Assembly: GCF_900111115.1 (NCBI RefSeq)
Contig: NZ_FOGD01000002.1
Coordinates: 62,001 to 126,000 of the forward strand
Length of the DNA: 64,000 nucleotides
DNA from: Giesbergeria anulus
GTDB taxonomy: Bacteria > Pseudomonadota > Gammaproteobacteria > Burkholderiales > Burkholderiaceae_C
Direction: 5' to 3'
The notes under the pieces were generated by a model. It saw only the letters and a program-made list of their open reading frames with translations, ran no database searches and was not told the origin of the DNA. The position numbers and the translations under genes are program-made. Numbering within the stretch: the stretch's first letter is position 1; each line of letters starts with the position of its first letter. This document shows positions 5,741-31,842 of this stretch, one piece after another.

Positions 5741-5779
5741 GCAGAAACCATTTTACGGGGTGACACTATCATCCACACC

Positions 5780-6814
5780 ATGATGCGAATACAAGACCTT
5801 TTCGGAATCGAGCTACCGATCATCCAAGCACCCATGGCCGGGGTACAAAACAGCGCATTGGCGATTGCTGTGTCCAACGCGGGGGGCTTAGGCTCCTTGC
5901 CTTGTGCCATGCTCAGTGCAGAAGCCCTGCGCTCCGAGCTAGAAACCCTCCAAGCCCAGACCCAGCGGCCATTCAACCTCAATTTCTTTTGCCACCAGCC
6001 ACCTACCCCTGATGCCAGCAAGGCTGTTGCATGGCAGTCCCTGTTTGCGACCTATTACGCACAGTGGGGCATTGACCCCACCCAAGTGCCACGCGGCCCA
6101 GCCCGGATGCCATTCAACCAAGAGATGGCAGCCTTGGTGTGCGAATACCAGCCTGCGGTGGTGAGCTTTCATTTTGGGCTACCCGCCCCAGAACTGCTGA
6201 ACATGGTGCGCAACTGCGGGGCCAAAATCGTCTCGTCGGCCACCACCGTAGCCGAAGCGCTGTGGCTAGAGGCCCAAGGGGTGGATGCCATCATTGCCCA
6301 AGGGCTAGAAGCAGGGGGCCATCGCGGTATGTTTCTCAGCCAAGACATCAGCACCCAAGTGGGCACCTTTGCCTTGCTACCGCAGATCGTGCAGGCCGTC
6401 AAGGTGCCAGTGATTGCCGCCGGGGGCATTGCCGATGCCGCTGGGGTACGCGCCGCCTTGGCTTTGGGCGCGGCAGGTGTGCAGGTGGGCACAGCCTATT
6501 TGTTATGCCCAGAGGCTACAACCAGTGCCGTCCATCGCGCAGCGCTCCAGAGCAGTCACGCACGCGTTACGGCACTGACCAATGTGTTCTCAGGCCGCCC
6601 CGCGCGGGGCATTGTCAATCGCTTGATGCAAGAGCTGGGGCCGATGAATACGCTGGCCCCAGCGTTTCCACAAGCCACCGCTGCATCAGCCCCCTTGCGG
6701 CTTGCCGCTGAACGGGCGGGCCTTGGCGATTTCTCTCCTTTGTGGGCTGGGCAAAATGTGTCGGGCTGCCAAGAGATTTCTGCGGCAGCACTCACGCAGG
6801 AGCTGGCAGGCTGA
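5780..6814 (+). CDS. Nitronate monooxygenase (2-nitropropane dioxygenase family)
   Basis: This 344-residue FMN-dependent TIM-barrel enzyme oxidises alkyl nitronates such as propionate-3-nitronate to a carbonyl and nitrite, a detoxification role. The N-terminal IQAPMAG (residues 15-21), the buried SFHFG with a candidate catalytic His (residue 131), the flavin/phosphate-binding QGLEAGGHRG (174-183) and the IAAGGIAD segment all match the family. Two ATGs are adjacent at the start; the first is used here. It is monocistronic by position: divergent from the Mrp operon and separated from the next gene by a riboswitch leader. Enoyl-ACP reductase FabK is a distant relative, but FabK would be shorter. 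Confidence 0.9.
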   Translation: MMRIQDLFGIELPIIQAPMAGVQNSALAIAVSNAGGLGSLPCAMLSAEALRSELETLQAQTQRPFNLNFFCHQPPTPDASKAVAWQSLFATYYAQWGIDPTQVPRGPARMPFNQEMAALVCEYQPAVVSFHFGLPAPELLNMVRNCGAKIVSSATTVAEALWLEAQGVDAIIAQGLEAGGHRGMFLSQDISTQVGTFALLPQIVQAVKVPVIAAGGIADAAGVRAALALGAAGVQVGTAYLLCPEATTSAVHRAALQSSHARVTALTNVFSGRPARGIVNRLMQELGPMNTLAPAFPQATAASAPLRLAAERAGLGDFSPLWAGQNVSGCQEISAAALTQELAG

Positions 6815-7639: not shown

Positions 7640-8917
7640 TTGACTATTGGTACATCATTTCTGCTCATCATTCTGGCCAGTGTGGTATTGGCCATGGCGC
7701 TGGCAGTGGTGTCGTACCGCCGCACCGGTACCCATGTACTGCATATCTGGGCCAGTGGACTGGTCGTCCATGCCATAGCCTATGTGCTGTTTGCCTTGCG
7801 CGGCCAAATCAACGATGGGCTGTCTATTGTGCTGGCCAATACCCTGCTGGCCTTTATGTTTATTCTGTTTGCATTGGGCGTGGCCCGGTTTCAGCAGCGC
7901 CCATTAGCACCCCTGCTGCTGTGGGGGCCGATGGTGGTGGTGCCACTGCTGTTTACCGTGTTGTTACCCTATAGCGAGGCCAGAGTGGTGCTGGGTGGGG
8001 TGATCTTTTCTGCACAAGCGGGGTTGGCTGTACTGCTGCTGTGGCAGCAGCGTCAGCAAACGCCGGGGCGAGGGCAATACATTTTGATGGCCGGGTTTTT
8101 TCTGGTCATTTCGGTGTTTAGCTTGCGCGCCGTCGCTACCCTGACCGGATACGTCAAAATGACCTCGATACTAGACGAAAACCCGGTGCAGTACCTCTCT
8201 TTTCTGACAGTAATTGTTTGTTTAATGTTGCTGGCCATGGGACTGGTGTTGATGGTTTATGAACGCCTAGAAACCGCTTTACTCGACAGCCAAGCCCTGT
8301 TGCAGGAACAAAACCAAGAACTGGCACAGTATGCGATTGATTTAAAGCGGGCCAATCAACAATTAGAAACCCTGTCTATCACCGACGGCCTCACTGGGCT
8401 GTTCAACCGCCGCCATTTTGATCATCTGCTAGAAACGCAGTGGGCGCAGGCGGCCCGCCAAGGCGGTGTGTTTTCGGTGCTCATGACCGATGTAGACTGC
8501 TTTAAGAAATTTAACGACCACTACGGCCACCAAGCAGGCGATGCATGTTTAGTGCAGGTAGCGCAAGTGCTGCAAAATCTTACCCTGCGGGCTGGCGATG
8601 TGGTTGCCCGCTATGGAGGTGAAGAGTTTGTTTTGCTGTTGGGCGGCAGCGCACAGCCCGCTGCCGCTGGCGCAGTGGCGGATGCCTTATGCCAAGCAGT
8701 GCAGGCGTTGCACATTCCCCATACCAAATCACCGTGGGGATATGTCACCATCAGTGTGGGCGTGGCCTCGGTAATGGCAACCCCACAGGGGTCGGTTGAC
8801 CAAGTGTTAAAGCTGGCCGATGACGCTTTGTACGCGGCCAAAGCTGCTGGGCGCAATCGGGTTTGCACTGCGGCATCACTCAAGGCCAGCCCGCACGCCC
8901 TTGAGATTGCTCATTGA
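7640..8917 (+). CDS. Membrane-bound diguanylate cyclase (GGDEF)
   Basis: This 425-residue protein synthesises c-di-GMP. About seven hydrophobic segments occupy residues 5-205 as an uncharacterised membrane sensor region, followed by a helical linker rich in Q/E/L (about 208-245). The GGDEF domain spans about 247-415, with GGEEF at 326-330 in the A-site. An R-A-G-D inhibitory I-site lies at 317-320, five residues upstream, so the enzyme should be active and product-inhibited. The start is TTG at 7640, supported by AAAGGAG at 7628-7634. Its last 38 bp overlap the end of the convergent yigZ gene. The sensed signal is unknown. Confidence 0.92.
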   Translation: MTIGTSFLLIILASVVLAMALAVVSYRRTGTHVLHIWASGLVVHAIAYVLFALRGQINDGLSIVLANTLLAFMFILFALGVARFQQRPLAPLLLWGPMVVVPLLFTVLLPYSEARVVLGGVIFSAQAGLAVLLLWQQRQQTPGRGQYILMAGFFLVISVFSLRAVATLTGYVKMTSILDENPVQYLSFLTVIVCLMLLAMGLVLMVYERLETALLDSQALLQEQNQELAQYAIDLKRANQQLETLSITDGLTGLFNRRHFDHLLETQWAQAARQGGVFSVLMTDVDCFKKFNDHYGHQAGDACLVQVAQVLQNLTLRAGDVVARYGGEEFVLLLGGSAQPAAAGAVADALCQAVQALHIPHTKSPWGYVTISVGVASVMATPQGSVDQVLKLADDALYAAKAAGRNRVCTAASLKASPHALEIAH

Positions 8918-18462: not shown

Positions 18463-19458
18463 CTACAGCGCACCCAAACTGGTACTGCGCTGGGCAGCAT
18501 ACAGCCCTACGCGCACCATGGTGCGGTGGTTAAGCTCCATCGTGACGGCGGCACGAGGCAGCGCAGACTGGATCAGCGGCTTGCTGTCAGCCGTTTGGTG
18601 CAATCGAGCCGGGTTGTATTGCTTGCCATTTTGATCGGCCAGACAGGCCACCAGCGGCAGGTTGGCTCTGTCGCTGCGGCGCAGCACAATGGCGGTGTCG
18701 CCGTTGTCTAGGCGCACAAAAGTGCCGGGCGGGCACAGGCCAATACTGCGCACCAGCAAATAGCCTACCTCGTCGCGTTGGTCAATGCCGGGGCCAACCA
18801 GCGCCCGTACAGAGTCGGTAGCACTGCGCCCTGGGCGGCTGTGGCGCGGGCTGATCATGGCGGCGTAGCGGTCAATGGTGTTCAAAATCCGCGTCAGGCG
18901 ATCCACCTCTTCCAGCGCGGCCAGCGGTGTGCGCTGGGGCAGATTGAGATGGTGCTGGCCCACCACGTCCAGCCAGAGATGATCGGTGACGTACAAGCGC
19001 TCTAGCAAGGCTTGGCCTTCGTCGGGGTGCTTTTGGATGGCTTGTTGCTGCTCCGCGTTGGGACGCTCGTGCTGGTTAGCCAACTCATCTTGCAGCGCGG
19101 TCATGCCCACATTCATGGTCAGGGCAGCGCGCACCAAGGCATTGCGCTCGCGCTGTGGCAGGGCCAGCTCTGCGGCCATGATGTGGCACAAAGTAGCGCA
19201 GACCAGCGCGTGAGAGGTGCTGTAACCCACGGTAGAGGTAGAGGCCAACTGAAACATCAGGTACAGCGCGGCGTCAATGTCGTGGGCCACCAAGTCTTGC
19301 AGCCAGCGGTCACACTGGCGCACTTTGGCGGCAAAATTGCGCGCTTGCAGCGGATAGGCGAGCAATACCGACAGGCTAGACTCCAAATCGGCCCACAAGC
19401 CCAGCAGGTCTTCGTATTCTTCGTCTTGTGCCTGACGACGCGGCACTCTGGAATTCAT
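18463..19458 (-). CDS. Degenerate HD-GYP-like protein
   Basis: This 331-residue soluble protein has the helical layout of an HD-GYP c-di-GMP phosphodiesterase domain (about residues 60-225) but lacks its metal ligands. The HD position reads MNVGM, and the GYP region reads QHHLNLPQR. YSTSHALVCATLCHIMAAEL and the following helices still align by pattern. It is probably catalytically dead and may bind a nucleotide or a partner. A C-terminal extension of about 100 residues includes a beta-rich stretch (FVRLDNGDTAIVLRRSD). The ATG at 19458 is preferred over the TTG at 19470; neither has a good ribosome site. It follows the aspartic protease gene by 21 nt. Confidence 0.72.
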   Translation of the reverse strand: MNSRVPRRQAQDEEYEDLLGLWADLESSLSVLLAYPLQARNFAAKVRQCDRWLQDLVAHDIDAALYLMFQLASTSTVGYSTSHALVCATLCHIMAAELALPQRERNALVRAALTMNVGMTALQDELANQHERPNAEQQQAIQKHPDEGQALLERLYVTDHLWLDVVGQHHLNLPQRTPLAALEEVDRLTRILNTIDRYAAMISPRHSRPGRSATDSVRALVGPGIDQRDEVGYLLVRSIGLCPPGTFVRLDNGDTAIVLRRSDRANLPLVACLADQNGKQYNPARLHQTADSKPLIQSALPRAAVTMELNHRTMVRVGLYAAQRSTSLGAL

Positions 19459-19479
19459 GGCGGAGAGCAAAACGGGAGG

Positions 19480-20139
19480 TCAGCGGCGCTTTTCTAGCAC
19501 CATCTGGTCGGGGCTGCGGGTCATCTGAAAATAGTTCAGAAAATTGTTGCCCAGTAGCACATAGGGCATGGGTTGCGACGTCACTATCGCATCGACACCA
19601 AAAACCTGCACATCCCCCAAGCGCACGCTATCGAGGCGCAAACGCCAGCCTTGGGCAATGCCATTGGCAGTGTTTATGCGTACCGGCGGGCCGCTGCGGT
19701 AGTCCAGCCCTAAGCGCTGGGCTTGGGCTTGGCCCAAGGCGATGGTAGAGGCACCGGTATCGACCATAAACTCCATCAACTGGCCATTGATCTGCCCTTG
19801 CTGCACAAAATGCCCTCGGGCATCGGCCACCAACACCACACGTTGGCTGCCACCGCCAGTGCCACCCACACTCACGGGCGCTTGGCCCAGTTGCAAGGTG
19901 CTGCGCGTGCCAGCCACCTCCACCACGGCCTCTTCTTTGCCCACCGAGAGCACACGCACGCCTTGGTGCGTTTCACCGGCAGCCACGGCGCGGGGCGCAG
20001 CGCCCGCCACCACCAACAGGGCCTTGCCACCGAGCACGCCACTCAAGGCCACGCTTTGTGCTGGCGCTAATGTGGGGGTCAGCGCCAGAAAGGCCGCTGC
20101 CAACAGGTGATGTATCCCGTGGGAGTAAGGCTGCAACAT
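19480..20139 (-). CDS. Retropepsin-like aspartic protease (clan AA, TIGR02281 type)
   Basis: This 219-residue protein has an N-terminal signal peptide (hydrophobic residues 11-24, then LAPAQS) and a C-terminal single-domain retroviral-type aspartic protease with the catalytic motif DTGAS at 127-131 and the flap-side ALGQAQAQRLGL. Related proteins are periplasmic or membrane-associated and act as dimers; their substrates are mostly unknown. The start at 20139 gives a clean signal peptide, whereas the longer frame to 20205 would run into yajQ. It lies between yajQ (25 nt) and the HD-GYP-like gene (21 nt). Confidence 0.82.
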   Translation of the reverse strand: MLQPYSHGIHHLLAAAFLALTPTLAPAQSVALSGVLGGKALLVVAGAAPRAVAAGETHQGVRVLSVGKEEAVVEVAGTRSTLQLGQAPVSVGGTGGGSQRVVLVADARGHFVQQGQINGQLMEFMVDTGASTIALGQAQAQRLGLDYRSGPPVRINTANGIAQGWRLRLDSVRLGDVQVFGVDAIVTSQPMPYVLLGNNFLNYFQMTRSPDQMVLEKRR

Positions 20140-20164
20140 GGGGCCGATCCGCAAGCTGGGGCGC

Positions 20165-20650
20165 TTAGTCGCGGAAGTTGTTAAACGACAGCGGCATATC
20201 GGCAATGTCTTTGCGGATCAGTGCCATTGCAGCCTGCAAGTCGTCGCGTTTGGTGCCGGTAACGCGCACTTTTTCGTCTTGGATGGCCGCTTGCAGCTTG
20301 AGCTTGCTCTCTTTGATGAGCTTTTGCAGCTTTTTGGCCAGTTCGCCCTCAATGCCGTTGCGCACCTTGATGACTTGCTTGAGCTTGTCACCGCCCATTT
20401 TTTGCGGCTTGCCAATGTCCAAAAAGCGCACATCCACATTGCGCTTGGTCAGCTTGTTGCGCAGCAGGTCTTCTACCTGTTGGAGCTGGAACTCAGCATC
20501 GCCAAACAGGGTGATCTCTTTGTCTTTTAGCTCAATGCCCGCAGAGGTGCCCTTAAAGTCAAAGCGGGTGCCAATTTCTTTGGCCGCGTTGTCCACGGCA
20601 TTTTTGACTTCTACAAAATCGGCTTCGCAAACGGTATCAAACGATGGCAT
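20165..20650 (-). CDS. yajQ: YajQ/UPF0234 family nucleotide-binding protein
   Basis: This 161-residue cytoplasmic protein of normal length is recognisable from [20 protein letters not shown], the [12 protein letters not shown] stretch and the C-terminal [10 protein letters not shown]. Family members have two tandem ferredoxin-like folds and bind nucleotides; in Xanthomonas and Pseudomonas they were reported as c-di-GMP-binding transcription co-regulators. The ATG at 20650 is used; the upstream extension to 20692 is not family sequence. It is the first gene of a three-gene minus-strand run and is divergent from murB. Confidence 0.93.
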
Positions 20651-20728: not shown

Positions 20729-21799
20729 ATGTTAGTCGAGAAAAACGTTTCCTTACAACCTTGCAACACCTTTGGCATCTTGGCCCGCGCCCAGACCTTG
20801 GTGCGCGTGCGCAGCGTGGACGATTTGCATGCCCTGCGCGCCGATCCGGTGCTGGGCCGCCAACCTTGGCTGGTGCTGGGCGGTGGCAGCAATATCGTGT
20901 TTACTGGCGATGTGGAGCCGGTGGTGCTAAAAATGGAACTGCGGGGCCGCCGCTTGGTGCAAGAGACCGAGCGCGCTTGGATTATCGAGGCCGCCGCTGG
21001 TGAGTCTTGGCACGACACCGTGGCCTGGACGCTAGCGCAGGGCTGGCCGGGGCTAGAAAACATGGCGCTGATTCCGGGCACCGTGGGCGCAGCGCCAGTG
21101 CAAAACATCGGTGCCTATGGTATCGAGTTGCAAGACCGTTTTGAGTCTTTAGATGCCATCGACATGGCGACGGGCCAAGCTTTTACGCTGGATGCTGCGC
21201 AATGCGCCTTTGGCTACCGCGATTCGGTGTTCAAGCACCTGCCAGCCGCCAGCACTGCCGAGGGTCTACCGCGTGGCATGGGGCTGGCTGGGCGCGCCAT
21301 CATCACACAGGTGCGCCTGCGCCTGCCCAAGCCGTGGAAGCCAGCGCTGGGCTATTTGGAGCTAGAACGCCGCTGCGCTCAAGAGGGTACAACGCAGCCC
21401 AGCGCACAGCAAATTTTTGACTGGGTGTGTGAAATTCGCCGTGCCAAGCTACCCGATCCGGCAGTGATTGGCAATGCAGGCAGTTTTTTCAAAAACCCCA
21501 CGGTCACGCCCGAGCAGTGCGCCGACATCATCGCGCGCGAGCCGAAAATCGTGCATTACCCCATGCCCGATGGCACGATCAAGCTGGCCGCCGGTTGGAT
21601 GATTGACGCCTGCGGCTGGAAGGGCAAAACCGTGGGCCAAGCCGCCGTGTATGACAAGCAAGCGCTGGTGCTGGTGAATCGAGGCCGAGGCGAGAACAGC
21701 GTCACTGGCGGCGAGGTGATGACGCTGGCCAAAGCCATCCAAACCAGCGTCTATGAGCGCTTTGGTATCCGGCTAGAGCCTGAGCCGTTGGTGGTATAG
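20729..21799 (+). CDS. murB: UDP-N-acetylenolpyruvoylglucosamine reductase MurB
   Basis: This 356-residue cytoplasmic FAD enzyme makes UDP-MurNAc from the enolpyruvyl intermediate in peptidoglycan precursor synthesis. The N-terminus has LQPCNTFGI, the FAD site has [12 protein letters not shown] and the [15 protein letters not shown] segment, and the catalytic Ser lies in NAGSFFKNP near residue 251. The C-terminal part is the type-I (E. coli-like) domain. It is divergent from yajQ with 78 bp between, and its 3' end lies only 12 bp from the convergent lipoprotein gene. Confidence 0.95.
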
Positions 21800-31194: not shown

Positions 31195-31842
31195 AAAATA
31201 AATTCTTCAGAATTAAGAAGCGGTATCGTCAAATTCCTGAGGGGCCGACTGTGCGAAGATAGTATGATGCTTAGCATCAGCGCCACGATTTTTCTGATCT
31301 TTGATGGTCAAGGAAATGTAGTCGGCACCTCTGAGGTTGCACGCGATAATACTGAGAAAATTCGCAAAAACGATCTAAAACGCTTGACGTAAACCCATAT
31401 GCTCACAGGCTTGGCAATCGGCACCATTTCACAGCACTGACCGAGCAAGAGTTAGCACACACCGCTTTCTACGGTAGAAAATTATCGGCATTGATAATAT
31501 ATATTGACCACTTCAAAAATATCAATAGCACCTATGGTCACCATGCTGGCGATCTGGTTACTCAGAAGCTGGGACAATTGTTCCAACAAAATTTGCGTAA
31601 AGATATTGACGTGGCAAAGCGCATTGGTGGCGAGGAATTTGCTGTTATTTTGCCCAAAACAGACAGTCAGCAGACCGTGGATGCCGCAGAACGTTTGCAC
31701 GACGGATTGCACGCACCGAGGTGCCTTGGGAGCAGGGTGGCCCGCTCCACTTTACCGTGTCAGTAGGGGTGGTCGGTACCTCTATGGTGCCAAAGCAAAT
31801 GGCCGTAATCGGGTCTGCTGCGAGCATGCCGCCCTCTCGTGA
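31195..31842 (+). pseudogene. Decayed PAS-GGDEF diguanylate cyclase
   Basis: The reading starts with a PAS-like end (IFDGQGNVVGTSEVARD, then the linker to LKRLT), is broken by TAA at 31390-31392, and frameshifts inside the LTGLGNRHHF entry motif. It then stays open through YIDHFKNINSTYGHHAGD and RIGGEEFAVILP. After the AAERL stretch it shifts frame again to read TEVPWEQGG and LHFTVSVGVV, then shifts a third time to YGAKANGRNRVCC and a stop at 31842. About 25-30 residues are missing between SVGVV and YGAK. Several independent lesions make this a pseudogene. Upstream material in the AT-rich island may have been its sensor part. Confidence 0.85.

Follow-up and report, generated by a model that had tools for sequence, protein, structure and literature searches.

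In the 64,000-nucleotide stretch of the Giesbergeria anulus genome analyzed here (the window; contig NZ_FOGD01000002.1, positions 62,001 to 126,000), three minus-strand genes follow one another in the order yajQ, an aspartic protease gene and a gene for a 331-residue protein of HD-GYP type in which Met-Asn replaces the catalytic His-Asp diad (the HD protein). Our leading but tentative reading is that the HD protein is a pseudoenzyme, probably co-transcribed with yajQ, that serves as a ligand-binding partner of YajQ. Its position behind yajQ suggests that the dead enzyme partners YajQ or serves it as a sensor, and from this adjacency we infer a physical or regulatory link between the two proteins. 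The run is as the original prediction described it, with the families as named, 25 nt between yajQ and the protease gene, 21 nt between the protease and HD genes, and all three genes intact. The source clade is a single GTDB family of soil and water bacteria of Comamonadaceae type.

Profile and fold comparisons agree on the identity of the HD protein. A Pfam search gave an HD_5 match above the cut-off (E 2.6e-9), and the AlphaFold2 (AF2) model (predicted local distance difference test score, pLDDT, 81; predicted template modelling score, pTM, 0.83) is closest among solved folds to Bd1817 (Z 16.5, root-mean-square deviation 3.5 over 214 residues), with c-di-GMP-bound DvhD at Z 15.1 and PmGH at Z 12.3 (c-di-GMP, cyclic di-guanosine monophosphate). 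The original prediction had called the protein HD-GYP-like and named HDOD as an example of a fold that might align better. Pfam returned no HDOD match at E up to 1, an absence that excludes nothing, and the structures 3p3q (MmoQ, Z 9.3) and 3m1t (Z 9.2), which we take to be HDOD structures, scored below the HD-GYP chains against the same model. The modeled fold is thus HD-GYP, as first labeled, and as far as these searches show HD-GYP is clearly the better label and HDOD the poorer one. A small beta domain comes after the helical part of the model, and residues G240, P243 and G245 before or at this domain are invariant in 35 yajQ-linked rows. No obvious membrane-spanning stretch was found in the HD protein, the best 19-residue window having a mean hydropathy of 1.5 and lying inside the domain.

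To place the active-site residues we used the characterized enzyme PmGH; statements cited here by PubMed Central (PMC) number follow excerpts of those sources. PmGH holds its metals through E185, H189, H221, D222, H250, H276, H277 and D305, uses D183 and K225 in catalysis and contacts guanine through R314 and K317; alanine changes at H221, D222, D183 or K225 abolished activity, R314A and K317A caused no substantial drop, and a form with iron at the G site alone held intact c-di-GMP (PMC4159591). Alignment and spacing put Y79, H83, M115, N116, H144, H169, H170 and D196 of the HD protein at the eight ligand positions in that order, V77 and M119 at the catalytic D183 and K225, and R205 and R208 at R314 and K317. 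Tyr or Phe at the E185 position characterizes the Y/F subfamily of HD-GYP proteins (PMC4159591), so that with Tyr79 at this place the diad alone is lost among the seven ligands common to both HD-GYP subfamilies. The claim that the protein lacks its metal ligands therefore holds for the diad but not for H83, H144, H169, H170 and D196, which are retained. Likewise, the QHHLN segment first taken for the lost GYP motif does lack the tripeptide, HHLNLPQ standing at that place, but it carries the kept ligands H169-H170.

Conservation of these positions was followed across 141 loci, comprising 80 named loci (the best 80 of 99 retrieved with the HD protein alone), 24 divergent linked loci, 18 others of the same family and 19 from other families, or 139 distinct sequences given the identical pairs L031/L035 and L080/L115. 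H144 and D196 are kept in all 141, M115 gives way to Ala in four, and counts for the remaining positions are listed in the table. Among 35 distinct yajQ-linked rows (the window's own, 10 named and 24 from wider family sampling, including L138, a contig end with the protease before the HD gene whose link to yajQ is presumed), the five ligands and R205/R208 all belong to the 37 invariant columns of 312, with a hypergeometric value of 1.9e-7 that ignores the kinship of the rows and structural fixing of residues. Selection looks to be purifying on all three genes, with ratios of nonsynonymous to synonymous substitution (dN/dS) against named relatives of 0.05-0.26 for the HD gene (5 pairs), 0.15-0.27 for the protease gene (3 pairs) and 0.02-0.08 for yajQ (5 pairs); the closest named relative of the HD protein, from a Giesbergeria metagenome-assembled genome, has 90% identity. 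Random decay of the HD gene was considered and is ruled out by its dN/dS and by the invariance of the retained ligands. With five ligands and both basic positions of the guanine contacts kept, the alignment suggests a conserved pseudoenzyme and not decay. Hydrolysis of c-di-GMP is predicted to be absent because the equivalents of D183, H221, D222 and K225 are all lost; with that set gone and the R314/K317 set kept, the protein is best read as a non-cutting binder, and its retained pocket would fit the receptor or scaffold role proposed for the dead enzyme in the original prediction.

The pairing of yajQ with the HD gene is constant in the named loci. In every one of the 78 with upstream DNA (L025 and L038, the other two of the 80, are contig edges) yajQ lies upstream of the HD gene, and this order holds down to about 37% HD-protein identity. 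The protease gene stands between them in 69 of the 78, one of these (L059) with a remnant, is missing from the gap in 8 and is upstream of yajQ in L080. A 56-residue protease match at positions 5769-5936 is all that lies between the two genes in L059, where the middle gene appears to have decayed while the yajQ-HD pair stayed in place. Within 3 kb of yajQ, in named loci with enough DNA, we found the HD gene in 77/77, the protease gene in 69/77, ldcA in 19/77, and a lipoprotein-like gene and an S4 gene each in 0/69; the lipoprotein-like gene is a weak control in this count, as a fast-changing protein may escape tblastn. Genes flanking the run in the window are mostly not kept, so the conserved block consists of murB and then yajQ-(protease)-HD. 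Only the named set is unbiased for the HD gene, its 35/35 in a genus-level set being so by construction, as linkage was the ground on which those loci were chosen. The poor retention of ldcA, the lipoprotein-like gene and the S4 gene makes it less likely that general synteny alone explains yajQ-HD adjacency, but murB is retained.

Wider sampling separates the three genes. In a family sample of 150 genomes from 141 genera, yajQ is present in 145, with the HD gene no more than 1.5 kb downstream in 43 and the protease gene downstream in 102; of the 145, 29 have both neighbors, 14 have the HD gene but no protease downstream (among them G171, where the protease is upstream of yajQ), 73 have the protease alone and 29 have neither (among them G526, which looks like a trio split by a contig end). 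HD adjacency was computed from HD rows to E 5.4e-61 and 55 of the yajQ rows, with weaker HD rows judged by eye and none found adjacent, so that HD genes weaker than E 1e-58 were countable as linked only in 30 loci read individually; the four-way count covers all 145 yajQ genomes. Among 399 genomes of the order, HD matches outside the family reach E 2.8e-53 at best, and no yajQ was found in the flanks (about 1.5 kb in most cases, less where a contig ends) of 19 other-family and 27 other-order loci. The protease has a different distribution: in an order sample of 150 genomes it has a match in 85 and a long match in 79, and of these 79, to which the count is confined (the six with short matches only being left out), 75 also have yajQ, the two genes being adjacent in 13 (4 in the window's family), on the same strand with the protease no more than 4.5 kb downstream in 31 and in neither arrangement in 31. 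Since yajQ and the protease gene pair across Burkholderiales, they are the older neighbors; the linked HD gene looks to have been added later, inside a single family. The trio as a strict unit is rejected, as 29 of 145 genomes have both neighbors and each partner occurs without the other. Of the three-gene order first proposed for checking, what survives is the yajQ-HD order, conserved beyond close relatives; the trio is not strict, and the linked HD gene was found in one GTDB family only. In eight loci of other Burkholderiales families (L245, L247, L248, L249, L250, L251, L256 and L257) an opposite-strand frame lies between yajQ and the protease gene, with the motif MKP(V/I)AI(F/M)R...EGP(G/A)YF(A/G)T, and is presumably glutamine-amidotransferase-like.

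By its sequence the HD protein is a member of a wider group, in Burkholderiales and other orders, in which the diad reads xN (a variable residue, then Asn) and most examined members keep GYP. All 19 other-family Burkholderiales homologs have MN or AN in place of HD, and in 18 of them GYP is present after HH. Outside the order 25 of 27 rows are xN, with G, A, S, Q, C or M as x, a fraction biased because the rows were chosen as best matches to a profile already carrying Asn; L192, L199 and L204 were dropped from this count as coming from genomes already counted, and the two exceptions are L201, which has HD, and L202, which is unaligned and reads AD. The order of events that fits these sequences is a change from HD to xN first, with GYP probably lost later inside this family. 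A 99-row tree places all 35 linked rows in a single clade, which has 40 members and a Shimodaira–Hasegawa-like approximate likelihood ratio test (SH-aLRT) support of 99; the tree is of a quick type with SH-aLRT only, has many weak deep forks, is rooted on one long branch and omits L198 and L202. A single origin of xN is not established, because the RD row L083 and the HD row L201 fall, with weak support, inside the xN part. L083 (C17:118694-119491 of the window's own genome) is a half-degenerate paralog with RD for HD and an intact HHERPDGKGYP; the genome also has L082, an MN copy, and L084, which is canonical with HD...GYP. Three longer linked members (L129, L133 and L136), whose open frames run to 415-468 aa, carry an additional domain at the N-terminus, to which a Pfam search gave no name; the long gene follows yajQ directly in L133 and L136 and with the protease in between in L129, and the short HD form may descend from a longer one that was trimmed once linkage was in place.

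The middle gene belongs to the family to which it was first assigned. It matches the gag-asp protease profile (E 6.9e-25) and TIGR02281 (E 2.2e-30, 105.3 bits against a cut-off of 57.95), its nearest solved fold is APRc (5c9f, Foldseek E 8.1e-11), and all 23 aligned sequences share the DTGA motif starting at D127. The "secreted-type" part of that assignment fares less well: the N-terminus is signal-like by eye, but the protein has a more hydrophobic stretch elsewhere. The model (pLDDT 86, pTM 0.56) has a beta domain ahead of the protease domain, for which profile and fold searches gave no name; by eye, residues 28-91 of the protein (window 20139-19480, minus strand) resemble a GspC/PilP periplasmic domain, a likeness for which the same searches gave no support. 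In the family sample the protease beside yajQ does not track the HD gene, being not downstream in 14 of the 43 linked genomes. A role as output of a c-di-GMP module, as the original prediction had it, is unsupported because the protease is separable from the HD gene: it is absent, a remnant or upstream in 10 of the 78 named loci, and 73 genomes have the yajQ-protease pair with no linked HD gene.

Several characterized systems resemble parts of the locus. PA2572 of P. aeruginosa, with a receiver domain (REC) and a YN-GYP domain, has likewise lost the HD diad, its Asp giving way to Asn; it shows no detectable c-di-GMP hydrolysis, and phenotypes nonetheless depend on it (PMC3411652). The HD protein, too, has Asn for the Asp of the diad and keeps the other ligands, a likeness drawn from published description. 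PA2572 differs in its receiver domain, in keeping GYP and in its described partner, which in the excerpts of PMC3411652 is the chemotaxis sensor PA2573 and not YajQ. Bd1817 of Bdellovibrio, the best solved fold for the HD protein, is described as an unconventional, catalytically inactive protein of HD-GYP type, but has a binuclear iron centre whose metal ligands include the HD diad (PMC4159591). YajQ of the window is a full-length member of its family (PF04461 over residues 2-160; NF003819 E 2.3e-64, 216.5 bits against a cut-off of 146), with solved relatives that include the c-di-GMP effector XC_3703 (5b7w). Binding of c-di-GMP is described for the YajQ proteins of Xanthomonas, P. aeruginosa and Stenotrophomonas; the Xanthomonas protein works through a protein partner, a LysR-family regulator, and excerpts of the source mention no HD partner (PMC4199771). 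A yajQ mutant of a Burkholderia endophyte lacked flagella and had reduced biofilm and swarming (PMC5047915). For the protease, APRc of Rickettsia shares the fold and the DTG site of the middle gene, which in its model differs by the beta domain before the protease domain, and PerP of Caulobacter is named as a retroviral-type protease of bacteria (PMC4140852). Among the matches listed, titles and abstract openings of the open-licence PMC literature held no description of a yajQ-HD pairing.

Under the reading of the HD protein as a partner of YajQ, a phosphodiesterase fold has kept much of its remaining pocket after its diad became Met-Asn. yajQ and the HD gene would be expressed from one transcript, and the HD protein would bind a guanine nucleotide without cleaving it, with c-di-GMP as first choice and then pGpG, GMP or cyclic GMP-AMP (cGAMP). 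The nucleotide-bound form would in turn alter what YajQ binds, and the protease would be an older yajQ neighbor with an envelope role of its own. Consistent with this arrangement, the yajQ-HD pair persists in loci that lack the protease gene, keep a remnant of it (L059) or carry it upstream of yajQ (L080, G171). With 41 GGDEF matches in the genome, c-di-GMP is likely present. One of the 41 is a full GGDEF domain at window 8378-8860 (plus strand), within a 431-aa open frame; a partial GGDEF in a short open frame at 31491-31766 (plus strand; C18:93407-93709, profile positions 8-107) looks like the remnant of a diguanylate cyclase gene. A promoter and terminator scan of the locus found no sigma-70-like promoter, and its six terminator-like sites, against 3.3 in shuffles, were left unused as evidence.

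Several observations count against a partnership, and some of them favor operon hitchhiking, a possible but on balance doubtful alternative in which a functional pseudoenzyme stands behind yajQ for expression and by inherited order only, with no joint work. Outside the HD gene itself, murB lies within 3 kb of yajQ in 69/69 named loci whose upstream DNA extends for 3 kb or more. This cell-wall gene, for which we know of no tie to YajQ, matches the HD gene in constancy, and inherited synteny may account for the block. A linked HD gene is lacking in 102 of the 145 yajQ genomes, so that YajQ does not need the HD protein. The near-complete genome G421 keeps an HD gene adjoining murB (L140, G421:C1:92000-96000, on a long branch of 0.74) with no yajQ found, and the Met-Asn paralog L082 sits elsewhere in the window's own genome. 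Five members of the clade of 40 are unlinked to yajQ (L139, L140, L141, L142 and L144), two of them, L141 and L142, being second copies in genomes that also carry a linked copy. Two further points concern ligand binding: the HD protein has lost the GYP Tyr, which in PmGH touches a c-di-GMP phosphate (PMC4159591), and a structural role may explain the invariant pocket residues. Against hitchhiking, the adjacency of yajQ and the HD gene outlived loss or relocation of the gene between them, and ldcA, the lipoprotein-like gene and the S4 gene, all outside the block, are missing near yajQ in most or all loci.

The other alternatives concern what the proteins do. Asn can ligate metal, and N116 is present in 141/141 loci with five ligands kept, so the HD protein might hold one or two metals through N116 and the kept His/Asp ligands and cleave another substrate. 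We consider such an altered-metal hydrolase improbable: M115 is a poor substitute for a ligand His, the position varies among G, A, S, Q, C and M in other orders as if only loss of the His mattered, and the equivalents of D183 and K225 are lost, either of which killed PmGH activity when changed to alanine (PMC4159591). Quite improbable, too, is a role in which YajQ acts through tRNA or GTP and the HD protein assists it there and not in c-di-GMP signaling; E. coli YajQ does bind GTP and tRNA, and c-di-GMP is not preferred by all YajQ proteins (PMC4199771), but the fold of the HD protein is that of c-di-GMP phosphodiesterases, in a genome with 41 GGDEF matches. LapD controls LapG, and there the degenerate domain sits in a membrane receptor. 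A three-part module on the LapD/LapG pattern, with the dead enzyme and YajQ sensing c-di-GMP and a periplasmic protease as output, draws on the contiguity of the genes here and on the 29 genomes in which yajQ has both neighbors. We regard it as highly improbable given the protease-less, remnant and rearranged loci and the 73 genomes with yajQ and the protease alone, and the HD protein has no obvious membrane stretch, which leaves no visible carrier of a signal across the membrane.

Features of the yajQ-protease-HD locus in the window, with counts over the homologous loci
Feature	Position	Strand	Remarks
yajQ (DUF520/PF04461)	20165..20650	-	161 aa, first gene of the run; PF04461 E 1.9e-62
Clan AA (retropepsin-like) aspartic protease, TIGR02281	19480..20139	-	219 aa, middle gene
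Protease D127-T128-G129 active site	19753..19761	-	23/23 aligned sequences, the window's included
HD-GYP-like pseudoenzyme, by sequence (MN-HD protein)	18463..19458	-	331 aa, third gene; HD_5 E 2.6e-9
H83 (PmGH H189), kept metal-ligand position	19210..19212	-	141/141 loci
M115-N116 replacing the HD diad (PmGH H221-D222)	19111..19116	-	N in 141/141, M in 137/141 loci
H169-H170 (PmGH H276-H277), kept ligands, no GYP after	18949..18954	-	141/141 and 140/141 loci
R205-H-S-R208, spacing of PmGH R314/K317, after D196 (D305)	18835..18846	-	R205 in 136/141, R208 in 141/141 loci
C-terminal small beta domain, residues 241-300, starts LCPPGTFVRLDNG	18559..18738	-	strands 247-300 in the AF2 model
murB	20729..21799	+	divergent neighbor; conserved edge of the block

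The function of the widespread YajQ proteins is unsettled, with c-di-GMP effectors in some species and GTP and tRNA binding in E. coli, and a conserved genetic partner provides a direct handle on it; both YajQ and the HD protein are small and without an obvious membrane stretch. The xN group yields residue-level predictions of what a dead HD-GYP domain retains, and genome surveys could wrongly count its members, which occur in Burkholderiales and other orders, among the c-di-GMP phosphodiesterases. A more speculative and rather doubtful extension of the partner reading is that YajQ of Comamonadaceae-type bacteria has a dedicated co-receptor, a YajQ-binding clade of HD-GYP proteins that has given up catalysis to act as a switch for c-di-GMP or a related nucleotide. 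If this is true, YajQ signaling in these bacteria would be a two-protein system.

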